Of a stretch of DNA of 64,000 nucleotides, positions 2,893 to 56,714 are shown piece by piece; within the stretch, counting starts at the first letter, position 1, and each line of letters opens with the position of its first letter. The notes under the pieces were generated by a model, which ran no database searches, was not told where the DNA came from, and saw nothing but the letters and a program-made list of their open reading frames with translations. This DNA comes from Psychroflexus lacisalsi (lineage in GTDB: Bacteria; Bacteroidota; Bacteroidia; Flavobacteriales; Flavobacteriaceae). The stretch is taken from assembly GCF_020164495.1 (NCBI RefSeq), contig NZ_JAIQYZ010000001.1, positions 434,001 through 498,000 on the forward strand, given 5' to 3'. The position numbers and the translations under genes were made by a program.

Positions 2893-3888
2893 GTGGCTAA
2901 GATAGATAACATAGATTTAGGTGATTTCCCACTTTTATTAGCTCCTATGGAAGATGTAAGTGATCCTCCTTTTAGAGCATTGTGCAAGGAATATGGAGCC
3001 GATATGGTGTATACAGAATTCATCTCTTCCGAGGGACTCATTCGTGATGCTGCCAAAAGTATGATGAAGCTGGATATTTACGAAAAAGAACGGCCAGTAG
3101 GTATTCAGATTTTTGGAGCCAATTTAGAATCGATGTTAAGGTCTGTGGAAATTGTTGAGAAAACCAAACCGGATGTCATCGATATTAATTTTGGTTGTCC
3201 GGTAAAGAAAGTAGTTTCCAAAGGTGCTGGGGCAGGGATATTGAAGGATGTTGATCTTATGGTGAAATTGACAGAGGCTATGGTGAAACATACAAATTTA
3301 CCCATAACAGTAAAGACCAGATTAGGCTGGGATCATGATTCTATTAAAATTTACGAAGTTGCCGAGCGTTTACAAGACGTAGGTTGTAAAGCCATCTCTA
3401 TCCATGGCCGTACAAGAGCTCAGATGTATAAAGGTGAAGCAGACTGGAAGCCCATCGCCGAAGTCAAGAATAATCCAAGAATGCATATTCCTGTTTTCGG
3501 TAATGGTGATGTAGACACACCTGAAAAAGCAGTTCTTATGCGTGATAAATATGGTCTAGACGGAGCTATGATAGGAAGAGCCAGTATTGGTTCGCCGTGG
3601 TTTTTTAAAGCTGTGAAGCATTATTTCGAAACAGGTACTCATTGCGATTCGCCATCTATGGTAGAGCGTGTAGATATTGCCAGACGTCACCTGCAAATGT
3701 CTATAGACTGGAAAGGAGAAAAGCTTGGTGTTTTTGAAACCAGAAGACATTACACCAACTACTTCAAAGGTATTCCGCATTTTAAGGACTATAGAATGAA
3801 AATGGTAACCTCAGATCATGCTGAAGATGTATTTGCTACCTTCGATGAAGTAGAGGAGAAGTTCGCAGATCATCAGTTTGCGGAATAG
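2893..3888 (+). CDS. dusB: tRNA-dihydrouridine synthase, DusB type
   Basis: FMN-dependent reductase that converts uridine to dihydrouridine in the tRNA D-loop. The 331-residue protein has the TIM-barrel FMN motif LLLAPMEDVSDPPFRALC near the start. The catalytic cysteine is C102 in NFGCPVKKVVSKGAG, and later come VKTRLGWDHDS, SIHGRTRAQMYKGEADW and GNGDVDTPEKA. The start is GTG: an in-frame TAA lies 9 bases upstream, and MAKIDNIDLGDFPLLLAPM matches the usual N-terminus, while the next ATG would remove the FMN loop. It is monocistronic and divergent from lepA. Confidence 0.96.
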   Translation: MAKIDNIDLGDFPLLLAPMEDVSDPPFRALCKEYGADMVYTEFISSEGLIRDAAKSMMKLDIYEKERPVGIQIFGANLESMLRSVEIVEKTKPDVIDINFGCPVKKVVSKGAGAGILKDVDLMVKLTEAMVKHTNLPITVKTRLGWDHDSIKIYEVAERLQDVGCKAISIHGRTRAQMYKGEADWKPIAEVKNNPRMHIPVFGNGDVDTPEKAVLMRDKYGLDGAMIGRASIGSPWFFKAVKHYFETGTHCDSPSMVERVDIARRHLQMSIDWKGEKLGVFETRRHYTNYFKGIPHFKDYRMKMVTSDHAEDVFATFDEVEEKFADHQFAE

Positions 3889-9609: not shown

Positions 9610-10158
9610 ATGATTCGTAATTATTACAACGAAGAATGGAAAGATGTCGTCTTTGACGATAAAATTGCAAAATTTGAAAAATATAAAATTTCAAATTACG
9701 GCAGAATGCTTAACTGTAAAGGTCTAAAAGAAGTTTTGGTGAAAGAATCCTTTATAAATGGCTATCAAACCCTTCCTCTCAAGCAAGAAATCAACAAAAA
9801 ATCTACAAGTAGGTATGTCCACAAGTTAGTTGCAGAACACTTCCTGGAACGCGGTGATGGAATCTATGTGATCCATCTCAACTATGACAAACTGAATAAC
9901 AAAGTTGAAAACTTGAAATGGTCTACCAAAAAAGAAAAGGAAACACATCAATTTAGTAATCCTGATTACATCAATAGGCCTAAAAAGCGGACGTATTCCA
10001 AATTGACCGAAGCTAAGGTAAGGTTGATAAAGCGAAAAATTCACGATCCCAACCGACGCACGCGTATGAAAATGATTGCTAAGCAATTTGGTATTTCTGA
10101 GATGCAACTTTATCGCATAAAAAGCGGAGAAAATTGGGGTACAGTAACTGACTATTAA
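9610..10158 (+). CDS. NUMOD4 / HNH-like protein with C-terminal helix-turn-helix
   Basis: A 182-residue protein related to homing-endonuclease modules. Residues 8-32 (EEWKDV...KYKISNYGR) form a NUMOD4 DNA-binding motif. Residues 69-105 resemble HNH_3, with VHKLVAEHFLE (H71), then VIHLNYDKLNNKVENLKW (H89, N96). The usual NHIDG is altered to IHLNYD, so catalytic ability is uncertain. Residues 125-175 (KLTEAKVRLIKRKI...MIAKQFGISEMQLYRIKSG) look like a helix-turn-helix. It stands alone, not inside an intron, intein or phage, which hints at a domesticated DNA-binding role. Its stop lies 2 bases from the stop of the convergent nuclease gene. Confidence 0.8.
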   Translation: MIRNYYNEEWKDVVFDDKIAKFEKYKISNYGRMLNCKGLKEVLVKESFINGYQTLPLKQEINKKSTSRYVHKLVAEHFLERGDGIYVIHLNYDKLNNKVENLKWSTKKEKETHQFSNPDYINRPKKRTYSKLTEAKVRLIKRKIHDPNRRTRMKMIAKQFGISEMQLYRIKSGENWGTVTDY

Positions 10159-13418: not shown

Positions 13419-13465
13419 TTTCGAACTAATTCTACAAGAAATTGAGAAACAGGAGTCTATTTTTG
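13419..13465 (+). promoter_or_regulatory. promoter with 18-bp box and TATTTTTG -7 element (copy 1)
   Basis: TTTCGAACTAATTCTACA at 13419-13436, then 21 bases, then TATTTTTG at 13458-13465, a TAnnTTTG match 16 bases before the ATG at 13482. The same arrangement with the same spacing precedes the paralogous gene at 16910, while flanking bases differ. The shared box therefore probably binds a sigma factor or regulator common to both genes. Confidence 0.7.
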
Positions 13466-13481
13466 TTCAAAACATCCTATT

Positions 13482-16400
13482 ATGAACAAAATTACTTTTC
13501 TATTTTTTACATTTCTATTTATTTCAGTGTCACCACTTGTTTTTTCACAAAACTGTCCGCCAAACTTATCGACAGATCCAGCTGAAGGTGACTTTGGTAC
13601 TAATGAATGGCTAGCTTATGTTTATAATCATAACAGTTATAATACCAGTACCTTTAATTTAACTGATTATCGTGGATATTATCGGGATTCTGGATATGGT
13701 GATTCTGGAATTAGTTTCGACTCTTCAGATTTATGGAATATAGACAGTAACCCCAGTACAGCTCCTGCTTACGAAGGCTGCAGTGTGACTTCAGATAACC
13801 ATACTGTTGTCTATAAACGAAAAGGATTTCCTTTGGGAGAATACAGGATTGACATAGCCTCTCAAACAGGAGGTAATGGTCATGACGATGCTGCAATATT
13901 GTATATTGATGGTTTAGAAGTTTGGAATAATACGGATTGCTGTGCTCCACGTCTTAATGTTTGGTCAGGAAGTCTTGATGAAGATTCCGAAATAGAATTT
14001 GTTTGGTCCGAAAGGTCTGGAGAATCTTATGGAAGACTTAGATTAACAGAGGTAACGCTTGATCCTCCATTAGGCAATGAAGGAGATTTTGGTGATGAGG
14101 AGTGGTTTGTTTCAGCATATAATGGAAGTAATTTTGATGCATACAGAGGAGCCTATATTCATGATGCCCTTAGTTTTAATACGAGAGATTTATGGCTGCA
14201 ATCTGAGTCCCCTTCATCTGCTCCTAATTATTCTGGAGATCAAGTGAATAATAATAATCATTCGTTTGTTTATAGACGTAGAGGGTTTTCCTGTGGAATT
14301 TACCAGTTAAACATTCCTTCACATGATGATAATGTTATAGTTACCATTGACGGAGTTGAAATCTTTACTTCAGGTTATGTTGGTGGTAATAGGATTGATG
14401 ACATCTGGCAAGGGTATTTAGGTCCTAATTCTGAAATTGAATACAGTATTGTTGAGTTTAGTGGACGATCCTTTGGAAGTCTCCAATTTGTTAATATTAC
14501 AGAATCAAACCAATTTATTTGGACAGGTGAAGTGAACACTTCAGTTGACGATGTTAGTAATTGGTGTGGGTCATTACCTTTAAATGACGGAACATCAAAT
14601 ATCTACATACCTGCTAACGTTAATAATTTTCCTAACTCTAATTTCAATTCTTTTATAAACGATATTTATATTGAGCCAAATGCCTCTTTGACATTTGACA
14701 GTGAAATACGAATAGCTGGTAATTTAGTTAATGATGGAATGTTAAGTGGAGAAGATGGATCTTTAAATTTCGTTGGACCTCAGAACCATGTTGTTAACGG
14801 AAATGGTTTTAGTATTTCAAATTTAACTATAGATTCAGATTTAACGTTTGATCTTGATCTTGGTGAAATAATTAACTTGTCAGATATTCTTAGTGTTGAT
14901 CAAGGCACCTTAAACACGAATGGCAATCTTTCTTTACGATGTAATTTTGGAACACCAGGAAAAACGGCTCAGGTGGGTCCTGTTGGAGGAACAATTGTGG
15001 GCGATGTCACTGTAGAGCAGTGCTTTCCAGCGCGAAGAGCTTTTAGATTATTAACCTCATCCGTGACAACAACAGGATCTATAAGACAGAACTGGCAAGA
15101 AAATCCCTCTTCCTATACTAATGATCCTAACCCAGGTTATGGGACCCATATTACAGGACTTTCACCTGGTCTTTCAGATGCAGTTATTGGAGATGATGGA
15201 GTTAATGGATTTGACTATAACCCTTCCGGAAATCCGTCTTTATTTAAATTTAGAAATATTGAATTAAGTACTTCAGAGCCAAGAGGATGGTATTCCGTTG
15301 CAAATACAACAGATATTTTAACTGCAGGTGAGCCTTACCGATTAATGATAAGGGGGGATAGAAGCATTGATGTTACACTCAATATTGCAACACCAGAACC
15401 TACTCGGTTAAGATCAACAGGAGCTTTAATAACTGGAAATAGATCACAAAGCAATCTATTAAATGTAAGTGGAGATTTCAATCTTATTGCAAATCCATAT
15501 CACGCTCAAGTGAATATGAACTCAGTCCTTGCAGCTTCAACGAATCTATCTACAACTCAATATTACATTTGGAATCCAGCTATAGGAGGTGCTAATGGTA
15601 GAGGGGCTTATGTGACTTTTGATCTAACAAATAATTCAAGTTCTTTGAGTGATGGGGGCTTAGCAGATGAGCCAAGTTTTACTAATCAATTCTTACAACC
15701 AATGCAGGCCGCCTTTGTAATAACCGGAACAGAAACAACTGCTCCAATAATTAATTTCCAAGAATCTCACAAGGCCGTAAGTCAAGTACAAACGCGAACT
15801 AAATCTTTGTCTCAGTCAGAATACATCAATATTCAGTTATTCGATTCAGATTCTTATAATTCTGGAGAAACACCATCCGACGGTTTGAGAATTAATTTTG
15901 ATAAATCATTTAGTGCGACTTCTGAAGATGATTCACCAAAACTTACTAATTTGGATGAAAACCTAGCAAGAGTCGAAGGCAATAGTTACTCAGCGATCGA
16001 AAGACGACCATTTCCTGAAACAGAAGAGCGTTTGGAATTGTTCATCAATCAATATAGAAGAGAGGCTTACGTGATGAAATTCGACCTGACCGATAACTTG
16101 AATACTAAAGTCTTTATTGAGGACAAGTATTTAAATGAAACTCAGGGAATCACTACCGCTGCTTATACTTATACGTTTACAGTGGACGAGTCGATTTCAG
16201 AATCCACAGCATCAGATCGATTCAGCCTTGTATTTGAACCAATCAGTTTATCAACAGTTGAGGAAGCTCTTGTAGAGGCAAGTTTATATCCAAATCCAAC
16301 CAAAGGTAGTTTTAGAATAAGTGGAGCAAACTTAGGAGAAGATGCGAAGATTGAGATTTATAACATGATAGGTCAGCAGGTTTACAAAACAGATCTTAAA

Positions 16401-16508
16401 AACCAATCTACAACTGAGATTACAAATTTCAATGGAAGTGCCGGCGTATATCTAGTCAAATTAAAAACCAATCAAGGCGAAAGAACCTTCAAATTGATAA
16501 AACAATAG
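13482..16508 (+). CDS. large T9SS-secreted surface protein with two PA14-like repeats
   Basis: A 1008-residue secreted protein. It has a signal peptide (about 1-23, to VFSQ). Two tandem repeats of about 150 residues (about 35-190 and 195-345) share the pattern GDFG..EW, YRG.Y, SPS.AP.Y, YRRRGF..G.Y, IDG.E, W.G.L...SEIE, G.S.G.L and look like a PA14-type fold. A linker beginning FIWTGE follows. From about 495 comes a block shared with the proteins at 16910 and 54891 (TAQVGPVGG, FPARRAFRLL, GYGTHITGL, GNPYHAQVNMNSVL, QPMQAAFV, INQYRREAY). The type A T9SS sorting domain runs from LYPNPTKGSF (about 935) to RTFKLIKQ. Function unknown; adhesin or ligand-binding is plausible. A tiny membrane protein follows 4 bases downstream. 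Confidence 0.88.
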   Translation: MNKITFLFFTFLFISVSPLVFSQNCPPNLSTDPAEGDFGTNEWLAYVYNHNSYNTSTFNLTDYRGYYRDSGYGDSGISFDSSDLWNIDSNPSTAPAYEGCSVTSDNHTVVYKRKGFPLGEYRIDIASQTGGNGHDDAAILYIDGLEVWNNTDCCAPRLNVWSGSLDEDSEIEFVWSERSGESYGRLRLTEVTLDPPLGNEGDFGDEEWFVSAYNGSNFDAYRGAYIHDALSFNTRDLWLQSESPSSAPNYSGDQVNNNNHSFVYRRRGFSCGIYQLNIPSHDDNVIVTIDGVEIFTSGYVGGNRIDDIWQGYLGPNSEIEYSIVEFSGRSFGSLQFVNITESNQFIWTGEVNTSVDDVSNWCGSLPLNDGTSNIYIPANVNNFPNSNFNSFINDIYIEPNASLTFDSEIRIAGNLVNDGMLSGEDGSLNFVGPQNHVVNGNGFSISNLTIDSDLTFDLDLGEIINLSDILSVDQGTLNTNGNLSLRCNFGTPGKTAQVGPVGGTIVGDVTVEQCFPARRAFRLLTSSVTTTGSIRQNWQENPSSYTNDPNPGYGTHITGLSPGLSDAVIGDDGVNGFDYNPSGNPSLFKFRNIELSTSEPRGWYSVANTTDILTAGEPYRLMIRGDRSIDVTLNIATPEPTRLRSTGALITGNRSQSNLLNVSGDFNLIANPYHAQVNMNSVLAASTNLSTTQYYIWNPAIGGANGRGAYVTFDLTNNSSSLSDGGLADEPSFTNQFLQPMQAAFVITGTETTAPIINFQESHKAVSQVQTRTKSLSQSEYINIQLFDSDSYNSGETPSDGLRINFDKSFSATSEDDSPKLTNLDENLARVEGNSYSAIERRPFPETEERLELFINQYRREAYVMKFDLTDNLNTKVFIEDKYLNETQGITTAAYTYTFTVDESISESTASDRFSLVFEPISLSTVEEALVEASLYPNPTKGSFRISGANLGEDAKIEIYNMIGQQVYKTDLKNQSTTEITNFNGSAGVYLVKLKTNQGERTFKLIKQ

Positions 16509-16512
16509 TCTT

Positions 16513-16716
16513 ATGAAACTCAAAAATTCACACTATATAGCATTACTTATCATCGTTGCTCTACTTTTAGTAAGTACAACCAGTTATGGACAAGGACTTG
16601 GTGATATAGGTTTCACAGACGATGTAGATGACGAACCTGTAGCTCCCATTAATGGCTTAATTGCGCTAGGACTTGCTGTAGGCGGTTATCTAGGGATTAA
16701 AAAAGTGAGAAAATAG
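16513..16716 (+). CDS. small membrane protein with PEP/PID-CTERM-like C-terminus
   Basis: A 67-residue protein. It has a signal peptide or N-terminal helix (IALLIIVALLLVSTTSYGQ), an acidic linker (TDDVDDEP), then the tripartite tail APINGLIALGLAVGGYLGIKKVRK: a Pro-Ile-Asn-Gly motif, a transmembrane helix and a basic end. This resembles the short Bacteroidota proteins with a PID-CTERM type sorting domain, thought to be handled like PEP-CTERM/exosortase substrates. It begins 4 bases after the T9SS protein and is followed by a terminator, so the two form a two-gene operon. A role as anchor or partner of the large protein is inference. Confidence 0.75.
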   Translation: MKLKNSHYIALLIIVALLLVSTTSYGQGLGDIGFTDDVDDEPVAPINGLIALGLAVGGYLGIKKVRK

Positions 16717-16741
16717 ATAAACTTTTCTCTCAAATAAACAC

Positions 16742-16773
16742 AAATCCACTTGGTCAGCCAAGTGGATTTTTTA
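16742..16773 (+). terminator. terminator hairpin
   Basis: A 12-bp stem (AAATCCACTTGG / CCAAGTGGATTT) with a TCAG loop followed by T residues. It ends the two-gene operon of the large T9SS protein and the small CTERM-like protein. Confidence 0.9.
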
Positions 16774-16844
16774 GTTAAAATGTGAATCAAAAATTAAACA
16801 AGTAAGTACTATCTGAATTATTAAAAAGATTTCTATCACATTGA

Positions 16845-16891
16845 TTTCGAACTTATTCTACATAAATCGTCAAGCTTAGCCCATATTTTTG
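16845..16891 (+). promoter_or_regulatory. promoter with 18-bp box and TATTTTTG -7 element (copy 2)
   Basis: TTTCGAACTTATTCTACA at 16845-16862 (17 of 18 bases identical to copy 1), then exactly 21 bases, then TATTTTTG at 16884-16891, 18 bases before the TTG start at 16910. The spacer is largely different from copy 1, so the box and -7 element are selectively conserved. Confidence 0.7.
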
Positions 16892-16909
16892 CTCAAATTT
16901 TAAAAATCC

Positions 16910-18964
16910 TTGAGTAAAATAATTTCAATATTTCTTTTTTCAATTTTAGCAAGTGTAAACTTCACATGTTATTCTCAGTCAGGCTTAGATGCATCTAAAA
17001 GTGTACAGGAGTCTGTTTTTATTTCCAGTGGAAGCTGGAGTAACCCTCAAAACTGGAAAAATCATAATTTACCTACTTCCACTTCCAAAGTTATTATAGA
17101 GGCTAATGCAATTTTAGATGTTTCCTTTCAGATAAATTCACTTGAAATTGATCAAAACATTACGTTATCAATAAATCCATCTTTTCAGTTATTTGTCACA
17201 AAAAACATTGAGAATAATGGCCGAATTCTTGGTGAAGGAGAGTTAGTTTTGAACGGGAGTTCCACTCAGTTTATCAAAGAGGAAGGGGTTTATAACAACT
17301 TACGTATTTCAAACTCATCAACAATACATATAAAGGACGAGATTGAAGTTTTCGGTAACTTGTATGTAGACGCAGGTCAGCTTAAAACTAAAGGGAATCT
17401 ATACCTAAGGTGTGATTTTGAAACCAATAGAACAGCTCAGGTTGGTGAGGTCCTTGGAGAAATTTCAGGAAACGTTCAAACTGAACAGTGCTATCCTGCT
17501 AGGAGGGCGAATCGATTAGTTAGTCCTTCAGTCACGACTTCAACTTCCATTCATAAAAACTGGCAGGAAAATGCAGACAGCTACTTTGATGAGGATATAG
17601 ATGAAGGTTATGGAACACATATTACAGGATTAAATCCTGGTAGTGGTCCGGCTTATCTGGAGCAGGATGGTGAAAATGGATTCGATTTTAATCCATCAGG
17701 GAATGCATCCCTGTTTACTTATGATCATCAACAGAGAGATTTCAATCCCATAAATAACACTAATGTCAATCGGCTAAAAGCAGGAAACCCTTACATGTTA
17801 CTCGTAAGAGGTGATAGGACTATTAATATTTACTCAAATTTGGCAGCGCCAACGGCCACAATACTTAGAGCCAAGGGTGAGCTTGTGACCGGGGACTACA
17901 CGACTACCGATTTGTCACAAACCAAAAACGGATTTAGTTTAGTGGGGAATCCCTACCACGCTCAGGTAGATATGAATTCTGTATTAGCAAATTCTATAAA
18001 CATCAGAAAAGATGTTTACTATGTTTGGGATCCAAAATTGGGTGGAATTCAGGATTTGAACCAGCCTGGGGGTAGAGGGGCTTTTGTTGTTGTGGAATTA
18101 CCCTCTGGTAGCAATTCTTCGAATTCTGAAGCTAACCAATACCTTCAACCAATGCAGGCTGTATTTGTTCAAACTATAGATGATAATTCTGTCACTCAAG
18201 TCAACTTTTCGGAAAGCGATAAAGCAGTTACTTTAAACCCTCAGACACAAATTCTTTCTGATTCTGATGAGCAATTTCTAAACATTCAGCTTTTCAATAA
18301 GGTTTCTTATAATGCTGGAAGCACTCCTTCAGATGCTCTTCGAATTAATTTTGGGAGTAGGTTTTCAAACTCTGCTAATGATGATATCACAAAGCTTAAA
18401 AATGTGGACGAAAACCTTACCAGAGCTATAGATCAAAATCTGGTCGCTTTAGAAAGAAGGAATATGCCAGGTGCTGAAGAGATTTTACCGCTTTATATCA
18501 ATCAATATCGAAGGGAAAATTATACTTTGAATTTCGAGTTTTCAGATTCGTTTGATACCGACGTTTATCTAATAGATCATTATCTGGAAATTGAAACCCT
18601 TTTGTCCGAGTCAAACCAAACCTATTCATTTAATGTCAATTCTTCGGTTGCAGGCTCTGTAGATGGAAACAGATTTTCTCTGAAACTAACGCCGGTCAAC
18701 TTATCAACTCCAGAATCGCTTTTTTCTGAAGTCAAAATTTATCCAAATCCGACAAAATCATCTTTTAGTATAAATGGATTAGCTGATATTACTAATGGCG
18801 AAATCAACATTTTTAACATGATTGGGCAACAGATCTATTCTGAAAAATTAGGTACTGTGTCAACGTTCAGCATTGAAGACTTTAATGTTGAGGAAGGGAT
18901 TTATATTGTAAAACTATCCTCAGATCATGAGGAGCAAAGTTTTAAATTGATCAAAGGAAATTAA
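16910..18964 (+). CDS. T9SS-secreted surface protein, paralogue of the protein at 13482
   Basis: A 684-residue exported protein. A signal peptide (to about CYSQ) is followed by a short module (ISSGSWSNPQNWKNHNLP, beta-helix-like, to about 170). From about 174 it carries the block shared with its neighbour: TAQVGEVLG, CYPARRANRLV, NWQENADSY, GYGTHITGL, GNPYHAQVDMNSVL, QPMQAVFVQ, LYINQYRRENY. The type A sorting domain begins IYPNPTKSSF near 609 and ends SFKLIKGN. It lacks the PA14-like repeats. The start is TTG: an in-frame TAA lies 6 bases upstream and the next residues give a good signal peptide. It is followed by a large palindromic element. Confidence 0.87.
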   Translation: MSKIISIFLFSILASVNFTCYSQSGLDASKSVQESVFISSGSWSNPQNWKNHNLPTSTSKVIIEANAILDVSFQINSLEIDQNITLSINPSFQLFVTKNIENNGRILGEGELVLNGSSTQFIKEEGVYNNLRISNSSTIHIKDEIEVFGNLYVDAGQLKTKGNLYLRCDFETNRTAQVGEVLGEISGNVQTEQCYPARRANRLVSPSVTTSTSIHKNWQENADSYFDEDIDEGYGTHITGLNPGSGPAYLEQDGENGFDFNPSGNASLFTYDHQQRDFNPINNTNVNRLKAGNPYMLLVRGDRTINIYSNLAAPTATILRAKGELVTGDYTTTDLSQTKNGFSLVGNPYHAQVDMNSVLANSINIRKDVYYVWDPKLGGIQDLNQPGGRGAFVVVELPSGSNSSNSEANQYLQPMQAVFVQTIDDNSVTQVNFSESDKAVTLNPQTQILSDSDEQFLNIQLFNKVSYNAGSTPSDALRINFGSRFSNSANDDITKLKNVDENLTRAIDQNLVALERRNMPGAEEILPLYINQYRRENYTLNFEFSDSFDTDVYLIDHYLEIETLLSESNQTYSFNVNSSVAGSVDGNRFSLKLTPVNLSTPESLFSEVKIYPNPTKSSFSINGLADITNGEINIFNMIGQQIYSEKLGTVSTFSIEDFNVEEGIYIVKLSSDHEEQSFKLIKGN

Positions 18965-53572: not shown

Positions 53573-54901
53573 ATGAAACTTTTTGGCAAACATATCTCTA
53601 TTCCTTTTACAACACCCTCAATTTCCAAACGTGATCAAAAATACATTTGGCATCCGCTTACTCAGCATAAACTTAATTCAGAATTATTAGCTATCAAGTC
53701 TGCAAAAGGAGCCTTGCTGAAGGATGAATCCGGAAAAACATATATTGATGCCATAGCTTCCTGGTACACCAGCATGTATGGTCACTGTCATCCACACATC
53801 GTAAAGAAAGTGAAAGCACAAATGGAAACTTTGGATCAAATAGTTTTCAGTGGATTTACGCATGAACCTGCAGTCGAGTTGTCTGAAAAACTAATGGAGA
53901 TTTTACCTAAAAACCAGGCAAAATTATTCTTCAACGACAATGGTTCAACGGCGACCGAGATCGGTATAAAAATGGCGTTGCAGTATCATCATAATCTTGG
54001 AAATAATAAGAAGGTGATGCTGGCCCTGGAAGATGGTTTTCATGGCGATACCTTTGGAGCTATGTCGGTGTCAGGTTTATCGGTTTACAATGGTGCTTTT
54101 GAGGATCATTTTATTGAAGTGAGGAGAATTCCAAAACCCAATGGTAAAAATAATGCAGAGGTCATCACTCAATTGAAATCCATCCTGAAAGAGCATGCCA
54201 TTGCAGGATTTATCTACGAGCCTTTGGTGCAGGGAGCTGCAGCGATGCAAACTTATGACCTCAATGGTCTCAATGAAGTGCTTAAGTTGTGCAAAGCCAA
54301 CGATGTGATTTGTATCGCCGATGAGGTGATGACTGGATTTGGAAAAACGGGTAAAAACTTTGCGTCAGACTATTTATCGGAAAAGCCAGACGTGATGTGT
54401 TTGAGTAAAGCCTTATCTGCTGGAATGGTTGGTATGGGCATCACGAGTTGTACTAAAAAGATTTACAAAGCGTTTTACGCCGATGAAGTTTCTAAAGGAC
54501 TTTTTCATGGTCATACCTACACAGGAAATCCACTCGCATGTGCAGCTGCTATTGCTGGTTTGGAATTGCTACAATCTCAAGAAATTCAAGAAGCGATCAA
54601 AACTATAATGAGTCTTAACCAGATGTTTGCCGATAAGATGCGCAAGCATGAACTAATACGCGAGGTTCGACAAATAGGAGTAATTCTGGCCTTGGACCTT
54701 AATGTAGAAATGGAACGCTATGGAAATGCGAGAGATGAGATGTTTAGCTATTTTATGAGTAAAGGAATATTCCTAAGACCTCTAGGAAAGACGATTTATA
54801 TTTTACCTCCATATGTGATTACAGAAGCACAACTAACCAAAATTTATGCGGTGATTGAAGATTACCTCAGTATTTTAGAAGAAAGAGCTCTTAAAGTTTG
54901 A
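53573..54901 (+). CDS. bioA: adenosylmethionine-8-amino-7-oxononanoate aminotransferase
   Basis: PLP aminotransferase that makes 7,8-diaminononanoate, the step between bioF and bioD. The 442-residue protein has the family start RDQKYIWHPLTQH after an 18-residue leader, WYTSMYGHCHPHI, FNDNGSTATEIGIKMA, DGFHGDTFGAMSVSG, DEVMTGFGKTG and the PLP lysine in CLSKALSAGMVGMG (about 277). It is separated from bioD by a promoter-bearing gap. Its last 11 bases overlap the end of the convergent T9SS gene. bioB and bioC are not in the window. Confidence 0.96.
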   Translation: MKLFGKHISIPFTTPSISKRDQKYIWHPLTQHKLNSELLAIKSAKGALLKDESGKTYIDAIASWYTSMYGHCHPHIVKKVKAQMETLDQIVFSGFTHEPAVELSEKLMEILPKNQAKLFFNDNGSTATEIGIKMALQYHHNLGNNKKVMLALEDGFHGDTFGAMSVSGLSVYNGAFEDHFIEVRRIPKPNGKNNAEVITQLKSILKEHAIAGFIYEPLVQGAAAMQTYDLNGLNEVLKLCKANDVICIADEVMTGFGKTGKNFASDYLSEKPDVMCLSKALSAGMVGMGITSCTKKIYKAFYADEVSKGLFHGHTYTGNPLACAAAIAGLELLQSQEIQEAIKTIMSLNQMFADKMRKHELIREVRQIGVILALDLNVEMERYGNARDEMFSYFMSKGIFLRPLGKTIYILPPYVITEAQLTKIYAVIEDYLSILEERALKV

Positions 54902-56714
54902 TGAGTTTGAAGGTTTCTTTTTGGTTGTTTTCGCCTATAATAGTCACTAAATAGACCCCTGTAGAGAGTGAATTAGCATCATAACTAAAAGGAGACGTGT
55001 TACTTTTAAATTGACCAGCATCTACTTTTTGTCCTAATAGCGAATAAATACTGAAGCTATAACTTTCGCTCGAGCTAGATAAGACTTGAATATTAAACTT
55101 ATCATTTACAGGATTGGGATAAACCTTAAAGTTTTGAGGGATTGTGTCCTCGTTAGATAACGAGTTCGACTCTATAATGAAACCATATCTAAGGTCTGGT
55201 TCTCCTTCAGCAACCTGGTAATCTACTGTGAATTCACCTTCATTTATCGGATATTCAAGATCCAAATAAAAGTCTTTTAAAACCATATCTGTTTCAGACA
55301 CATTTGAGGGGTTTACTTTAAATTGGTAAGCGCCTTTTCTTTTGTTTTTCAAACTCAGCATTATAGTATCTATTTCTTCTGGGAATCCTCGTTCTTCAAT
55401 ACTCAAATATCTACCCTGTGCATAGATAGATAAACTCTCATCGTAATTCTGAAATTTTTTAGCGTCCTTTAGATCAACTTCTGAATTTGCTCCTGCTTTT
55501 AGCTTAAGACTGGTAGCATCAATGGTTTTATTATTGGACTGCAACAACACATCGATTCTCGATTCTTGGTTGAAACTTGAAGGCTGAAGTTGAGAAATAT
55601 CCTTGTAATTTTCAGTGTAGTTGATAGAAATCGAGGTTGCCCCAGTATTTTTTGCTTCAACGAAAACAGCTTGCCAAGGCTGTATAAATTGATTAGCATC
55701 AGAACCTTGAGCATTAGTCCCCGCAGGTAATTCGACAGTTGCATAACCTCCACGAGTATTTAGTGTAGGGTCGTAAACGTAAATAAAACTTTCATTGAGA
55801 TTGGGATTATTATTCATGATAGAATTAGCATCAATACTACTATGGTAGGGATTACTCAGCAAAATAAAACTATTATCTGTTATCAAATTGACCTGTTTTG
55901 TAAAGCCTAAAATAGCAGGATTTCCTGTTAATCTTAAGGTTGTTTCTGGACCAATTGCTGTGTTGGAATTTAAGGTAGTAGATCTATCTCCTCTTATCAA
56001 TAAAGTAAAACTCTCGCCTTTATCGAATTTTTCGATATCTGTATTAGCAAAAGCAGACCATGACTGTGGGCCTTCATCCCAACTATAAAGAGAGGAGTTT
56101 CCGGAAAGTGTTGCATCGAACCCATTATTTCCAGACTTTGAACCCGTAATGTGCGTTCCGAAACCTGCTATGGTATCTATATTATCTGTAGGATAATTGG
56201 TTCCAGTATTGTGTTGACCTTCTTGGAGATTATCTAAAATTGGACCTGAGGTAGAAACAGGGGAAGAGAAGTACCTAAAGGCTCTGTTGGATTTAGGAAT
56301 AAAATGTTCAATTATAAAGTCTCCAGTTATGCTTCCGCCTGTATTTATTCCCATCTGGGCGGTTAGCGTGTCGTTGCTTTTTAAAGTCAAACGGCCGTTT
56401 GGAGAAAAAGCCCCTCCATGTATTTCAAAGGTTCTAAAGACATCTTGGTTCCCATTTGTTACTTCAACTTGTCCAGAACCTTTATCAATATTGAAATGTT
56501 CGATGAGACCTTCTCCTGAAATCGATTGTGCTTGATCTCCTATTAACTTAAGTTGTCCATTTCCCAAAAAACGTCCTTCATGGCGAAGATCGCCACCAAT
56601 CGATAAATTGACAGAATTCTCTAAAACCACTAAAGTAGATTCACCCACATAAACTTGGCTCATTAAACTTTGTGAGAAGACAATTAAAATAATAATCAAA
56701 AGTGCTTTTTTCAT
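54891..56714 (-). CDS. T9SS-secreted surface protein, third member of the paralogue family
   Basis: A 607-residue exported protein. The signal peptide ends near SLMSQ. An N-terminal beta-helix-like part (LGNGQLKLIGDQAQSISGEG) leads into the block shared with the proteins at 13482 and 16910: TAQMGINTGGSITGD, NRAFRYFSSPVSTSG, GFGTHITGS, SNPYHSSIDANSIM, FIQPWQAVFVEA. The type A sorting domain begins VYPNPVNDKF near 530 and ends ETFKLIKL. It is more divergent than the other two and lacks their promoter box, having instead a TAATTTTG box at its start. The function of the shared block is unknown. Confidence 0.88.
   Translation of the reverse strand: MKKALLIIILIVFSQSLMSQVYVGESTLVVLENSVNLSIGGDLRHEGRFLGNGQLKLIGDQAQSISGEGLIEHFNIDKGSGQVEVTNGNQDVFRTFEIHGGAFSPNGRLTLKSNDTLTAQMGINTGGSITGDFIIEHFIPKSNRAFRYFSSPVSTSGPILDNLQEGQHNTGTNYPTDNIDTIAGFGTHITGSKSGNNGFDATLSGNSSLYSWDEGPQSWSAFANTDIEKFDKGESFTLLIRGDRSTTLNSNTAIGPETTLRLTGNPAILGFTKQVNLITDNSFILLSNPYHSSIDANSIMNNNPNLNESFIYVYDPTLNTRGGYATVELPAGTNAQGSDANQFIQPWQAVFVEAKNTGATSISINYTENYKDISQLQPSSFNQESRIDVLLQSNNKTIDATSLKLKAGANSEVDLKDAKKFQNYDESLSIYAQGRYLSIEERGFPEEIDTIMLSLKNKRKGAYQFKVNPSNVSETDMVLKDFYLDLEYPINEGEFTVDYQVAEGEPDLRYGFIIESNSLSNEDTIPQNFKVYPNPVNDKFNIQVLSSSSESYSFSIYSLLGQKVDAGQFKSNTSPFSYDANSLSTGVYLVTIIGENNQKETFKLIKL

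Follow-up and report, generated by a model that had tools for sequence, protein, structure and literature searches.

LuxR-type helix-turn-helix (HTH) proteins activate transcription at the lux box, a 20-bp inverted repeat centred at -42.5 (PMC3376562), and special promoters for gliding and type IX secretion system (T9SS) genes have been described in the Flavobacteriaceae, where the Flavobacterium psychrophilum motifs SM4, SM5 and SM6 are, respectively, a sigma-54 motif, TAnnTTGY and a motif with CGT (PMC9723704). In Porphyromonas gingivalis a two-component system is tied to the T9SS through PorXY-SigP, with an extracytoplasmic function (ECF) sigma factor acting on the genes of the secretion machine (PMC7712824, PMC4800418, PMC8265659). 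In this work we describe an 18-bp promoter box in a 64,000-nucleotide stretch of Psychroflexus lacisalsi DNA (contig NZ_JAIQYZ010000001.1, positions 434,001 to 498,000; hereafter the window), where it stands before two genes for large surface proteins of the T9SS type. Our reading, to which we attach a rough probability of 0.6, is that a dimeric activator, most likely the NarL/FixJ-type response regulator described below, has its operator in the box and works with RNA polymerase that carries the housekeeping sigma factor.

The box resembles the lux box in being an inverted repeat of similar length with the same centre, and the candidate regulator has a LuxR-type HTH. It differs from the lux box in sequence, in its length of 18 bp and in being followed by a Bacteroidota housekeeping -7 element, and whereas the lux regulator is an autoinducer receptor, the candidate would be a phosphorylatable response regulator. 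The receiver and GerE domains of NarL (1a04), DesR (4ldz), DevR (3c3w) and VraR (5hev) match the candidate over nearly its full length (E ~1e-18 to 1e-15), yet these NarL/FixJ regulators of known structure are distant from it, and operator and regulon are not shared as far as tested. Unlike the targets of PorXY-SigP, the genes behind the box encode substrates rather than the machine, and they keep the housekeeping -7 element. PorX is of another domain type. The combination of TAnnTTTG with an 18-bp box likewise sets these promoters apart from SM4, SM5 and SM6.

Both boxes in the window are followed by exactly 21 bases and then by the -7 element TATTTTTG, which ends 16 bases before the ATG at 13482 and 18 bases before the TTG at 16910 (Table 1), just as the original prediction for this DNA had it. 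Allowing up to three mismatches, a scan of the window returned three matches, namely the two boxes and a 3-mismatch site at 3614, where 0.21 were expected; none of 100 shuffled windows reached three. The scan of the whole genome (3,036,088 bases in 53 contigs) that the original prediction had proposed found the exact box three times, every time with N21-TATTTTTG, and the third site (C34:147322), with the same spacing, precedes the gene for a further large member of this protein family. With up to three mismatches there are 19 matches in the genome, the three exact ones and 16 with two or three mismatches, against 24 in a reversed control, and thus only the exact ones stand out. All three exact sites precede T9SS-type surface-protein genes. 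The sorting-domain scan covered the two window proteins, the C34 protein lying outside it, and found the Por_Secre_tail domain in both (TIGR04183, 62 and 47 bits, cut-off 23); the two share 44% identity over 627 columns, in agreement with their earlier description as related large surface proteins.

Conservation of the box was followed through the genus. Among 27 Psychroflexus genomes, six have an orthologue of the 684-aa window protein (56-100% identity), while in the other 21 the best-scoring match to it, among the matches listed, is at 44%, besides one short partial match at 47%. The same six genomes, those of the source and of five further species, hold 20 exact box sites and one site with a single mismatch, all before such surface-protein genes ("exact" in this search permits C/T and A/T at two places); the remaining 21 have no box site with fewer than two mismatches. 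Most of the boxed sites fall at two syntenic loci, and one lies near a contig end in genome G323. Locus A is flanked by rbfA with a MacB-like permease gene and by an M1 peptidase gene, and locus B adjoins what by reading is an amidohydrolase-like gene. The 21 sites align without gaps, all with N21 between box and -7 element, and columns of the box carry 1.90 bits at a mean pairwise identity of 95%, those of the -7 element 1.59 bits at 84%; the spacer and the 40 bases upstream each have 0.44 bits per column at 36%. In all 21 genes the box starts 62-65 bases before the start codon. That codon is TTG in all six 684-aa orthologues (16910; G301, G304, G306, G310 and G323), at the conserved distance, and ATG in the 15 other boxed genes. 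The G323 orthologue has, on the minus strand of L074 and 78 bp upstream of its box, a second, more symmetrical site, TGTAGACTTAATTCTACA (6/7 pairs).

A family-wide spread of the exact box found no support. When box and N21-TATTTTTG were searched together in the family, with three mismatches allowed, 3 of 299 genomes matched, the source genome included; the two others have three mismatches, are alike and look like chance, and they were set aside. An order-wide search gave 21 sites in 16 of 395 genomes, and the genomic context was read for 12 of these sites; in the context read, neither surface nor regulator genes could be linked to those of G631, G472 and G555.

A further site from the order-wide search lies in the source genome itself: TTTCGACTAAGTTCTACA-N21-TATATTTG, at C1:305905, precedes a gene for an OmpA-type beta-barrel protein and makes a fourth own site, weaker than the three exact ones. 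Orthologues of the OmpA-type gene are present in 23 of the 27 Psychroflexus genomes, and 20 upstream regions were read (G312, G313, G321 and second copies were left out). The right half-site stands at exactly N21 in all six box-bearing genomes, as TTCTACA in five and TTCTATA in one, with a dyad score of 10-11 of 14. Of the genomes without the box, two have the half-site in a weaker form, TTTTACA (G174, 10 of 14; G300, 9 of 14), and 12 of the 14 box-less upstream regions score at most 6 of 14 or have no TAnnTTTG. It is important to note that identity with the own OmpA-type gene ranges from 79 to 100% across the six box-bearing genomes, so that shared ancestry adds to the count of six in six.

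These comparisons bear on whether the box has been kept only through recent copying of promoter and leader among the paralogues. The original prediction had named recent duplication of the upstream region as the result that would undo it, and this concern holds for one pair of sites: the first window site shares spacer, -7 element and signal-peptide sequence with the C34 site, and the proteins of the copies often begin with MNKIT-like residues. We take this to mean that some promoter and leader sequence was copied, which leaves the rest unexplained, as these sequences are shared neither by the other copies nor by the orthologues. The gap between 1.90 bits in the box and 0.44 in the spacer argues against plain duplication, and so does identity of about 36% in spacer and upstream DNA against 95% in the box. 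Between species, identity of the marker protein falls as low as 56%, and the element also stands at the same spacing before the OmpA-type gene, which lies outside the surface-protein family. Copying would need to have repeatedly picked out just the 18 bases, and we regard it as extremely improbable. That the box is a functional operator is very probable.

Where the box sits relative to the transcription start can be estimated from published promoters. TAnnTTTG occupies -12 to -5 in F. psychrophilum (PMC9723704), and in F. johnsoniae the element runs from T-12 to G-5, the -33 motif being far less evident (PMC6847099). With the start of the boxed promoters placed by this rule, the box would lie at -51 to -34 and the centre of its dyad at -42.5. 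Since TAnnTTTG is kept, the sigma factor in use is most likely the housekeeping one. The original prediction had called for a dedicated factor, either an ECF sigma factor or an activator, in control of a surface-protein regulon. The general part of that proposal is upheld by the conserved box and distance, the diverged spacer and the exact genome matches, which all precede T9SS-type genes, and together these suggest a dedicated trans-acting factor. The same cannot be said of the ECF sigma factor. As the -35 element of such a factor, the box would be suitably placed, spanning the -33 region with a constant interval to the -7 element, and the regulator gene does have an ECF-type sigma gene beside it. 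However, the usual -35 element is shorter than 18 conserved bases with a dyad, palindromic versions of the box occur in other genera, and the housekeeping TAnnTTTG is kept (1.59 bits). The published ECF-type motif of F. psychrophilum, moreover, has CGT (PMC9723704), which the boxed promoters do not show in place of TAnnTTTG. We therefore consider an ECF sigma factor very unlikely, and favour a dimeric activator.

The palindromic versions point to a candidate for this activator. The order-wide search included the palindromes TGTAGAATTAATTCTACA and TGTAGAACATATTCTACA, each N21 before TAnnTTTG, one of them upstream of an operon of a kinase and a NarL-type regulator, with which the regulator behind the other palindrome shares 43% identity; the sites of G652 and G512 have all seven dyad pairs. 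A search for TGTAGAA-N4-TTCTACA-N21-TANNTTTG, at up to one mismatch, then matched six of the 148 genomes searched from the genus of G512, against 1 in the reversed control. In a family sample it matched 2 of 397 genomes against about 3 in the control; both were judged to lie inside coding sequence and, with no excess over the control, were rejected. All 22 palindrome loci were read with wider flanks, and in nine a regulator of one NarL/LuxR-type subfamily lies within 3.7 kb (6/6 loci in the genus of G512, 3/14 in that of G652, 0/2 in the family sample). Four of these nine sites stand directly before the kinase-regulator operon, two before the regulator, two just behind it and one ~3 kb off. 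Some of the loci are orthologous, and the nine are thus perhaps five independent cases. The regulator profile was built including seven of the nine linked regulators, and the other two score 3.2e-82 and 7.8e-75.

In P. lacisalsi the corresponding gene is G000:C1:1100753-1101400, whose product has Response_reg (71.8 bits, cut-off 30.2) and GerE (64.5 bits, cut-off 23.5) domains. The subfamily is strongly represented (E 1e-41 or better) in 12 of the 27 Psychroflexus genomes, among them all six with the box, and one form of the regulator occupies one syntenic place in those six and in G322. Beside it lie genes for a short kinase-like protein (223-231 aa) and an S41 peptidase, as well as the ECF-type sigma gene; the own kinase-like protein matches HisKA below the cut-off. 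The kinase beside the regulator is ~227 aa in boxed genomes (L157:5396-6076, minus strand) and 986-1020 aa in G305, G307, G309 and G317. From its distribution and its relatives' sites, this regulator probably acts at the box.

Several observations weigh against our reading. The six box-bearing genomes probably form one lineage, and the counts of co-occurrence are therefore not independent. The box of Psychroflexus is only a partial dyad (5/7 outer pairs, shuffle P 0.016-0.036), five of the eight own family members have no box match within three mismatches, and one unboxed own paralogue nevertheless has the small peptide described below (module L033:4221-7383). In the genus of G652 the palindrome search matched 14 of 398 genomes against ~8 in the control (rows counted by eye). 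At 13 of the 22 palindrome loci there is no regulator of the subfamily nearby; immediately downstream of one of these is a LuxR-type regulator from outside the subfamily (E 1.5e-32), and in another a perfect palindrome precedes a surface-adhesin-like gene. Six of the 12 regulator-bearing genomes have no box. One of them, G322, has the same orthologous form of the regulator and no box within one mismatch; a search there for diverged boxes gave four sites with two mismatches, and at N21 from these TAnnTTTG is absent in every case. Finally, no site scoring 12 of 14 was found in the 12 kb around the regulator in the seven genomes with that form; the sole N21-spaced match there (9 of 14, in the source genome and G304) is inside the S41 gene and was taken as chance.

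The lack of a site near the Psychroflexus regulator gene, the six genomes with regulator and without box, and the 13 unlinked palindromes are what would be expected were the box the operator of another dimeric transcription factor, with the response-regulator genes elsewhere merely among its targets. This is possible, though we hold it to be rather unlikely: nine of 22 palindromes lie beside one subfamily, four directly before its kinase-regulator operon, which is the usual picture of autoregulation, and no other regulator gene, read by Pfam or by eye, adjoins locus A or B. Our conclusion is that the cis element is well supported, since box, exact spacing, -7 element, conservation and gene set can be read in the sequence itself, while the identity of the regulator, as well as activation and dimeric binding at the box, we infer; present in all boxed genomes, with no nearby site and with a box-less G322, the regulator is the leading candidate, not more.

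On this basis we propose that the regulator dimer, when phosphorylated, would bind from -51 to -34, with the dyad centre at -42.5, and so cover the place of the weak -33 element in the manner of a class-II activator. The bound dimer would contact RNA polymerase and recruit the housekeeping sigma factor to TAnnTTTG, and T9SS surface proteins and the OmpA-type outer-membrane protein would be raised together. In two other genera the regulator subfamily probably autoregulates its kinase-regulator operon.

Table 1. Features of the boxed promoters and their genes in the window. Transcription starts are placed by the published position of TAnnTTTG (PMC9723704 and PMC6847099).
Feature	Coordinates	Strand	Basis and remarks
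Box 1, predicted activator operator, TTTCGAACTAATTCTACA	13419..13436	+	Sequence search and alignment; predicted position -51 to -34
-7 element TATTTTTG, promoter 1	13458..13465	+	Transcription start placed near 13470
T9SS type A surface protein, 1008 aa	13482..16508	+	Sorting domain above cut-off
PID-CTERM-like peptide, 67 aa	16513..16716	+	4 bases after surface-protein stop; presumably co-transcribed; below curated PID-CTERM cut-off
Box 2, predicted activator operator, TTTCGAACTTATTCTACA	16845..16862	+	Sequence search and alignment; predicted position -51 to -34
-7 element TATTTTTG, promoter 2	16884..16891	+	Transcription start placed near 16896
T9SS type A surface protein, 684 aa, TTG start	16910..18964	+	Sorting domain above cut-off

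The boxed genes belong to a family with eight members in the source genome (E 1e-5), three of them boxed. The window also contains the paralogue at 54891-56714, which is 31% identical to the first window protein and, as had been noted earlier, has no box (no match within three mismatches in the window scan). Another own paralogue, L036:1917-4388 (G000:C1:688 kb), is interrupted by an in-frame TGA. Most boxed genes are followed, 2-5 bases further on, by a gene for a peptide of 64-69 aa. There are 21 boxed genes in the genus, one of which (G323, contig C12) runs off its contig and was left out of the count; of the 20 that could be read to their ends, 14 have the peptide behind them, and the six without it are the orthologues of the 684-aa protein. 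The own peptides stay below the 26-bit cut-off of NF046080 (PID-CTERM), at 20.7 and 19.3 bits with the third giving no match, and hence we name them PID-CTERM-like only. A large T9SS protein followed by such a peptide forms a repeated two-gene module (peptides at 16513-16716, L033:7183-7383 and L033:13901-14107). Further upstream, 3.3 kb from the first box, there is a NUMOD4/HNH endonuclease-type gene (9610-10158).

Activators of the LuxR-HTH kind that use a dyad centred at -42.5 are known, and what appear new, within the literature searched, are the operator and the regulon. In that literature we found no paper with the six motif strings, none joining Psychroflexus, type IX secretion and a response regulator, and none on LuxR-type proteins together with the T9SS in flavobacteria, on PID-CTERM, or on Chryseobacterium with LuxR and a palindrome. 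To our knowledge, few specific transcription-factor sites have been described in Flavobacteriia, and the present analysis yields a precise operator, a predicted regulator and a small regulon. We give about even odds to a broader proposal, that an undescribed flavobacterial two-component family, a kinase with a NarL-type regulator, reads TGTAGAA-N4-TTCTACA 21 bp before TAnnTTTG and autoregulates in some genera. In a Psychroflexus lineage it would have come to govern tandem, diversifying T9SS surface-protein modules as well as an OmpA-type protein, so that the two-component system would control the surface coat directly and need no ECF sigma factor. If our main reading is right, a two-component system would be tied directly to T9SS-exported surface proteins, and tandem surface-gene modules would keep one promoter switch while their other upstream DNA diverges.

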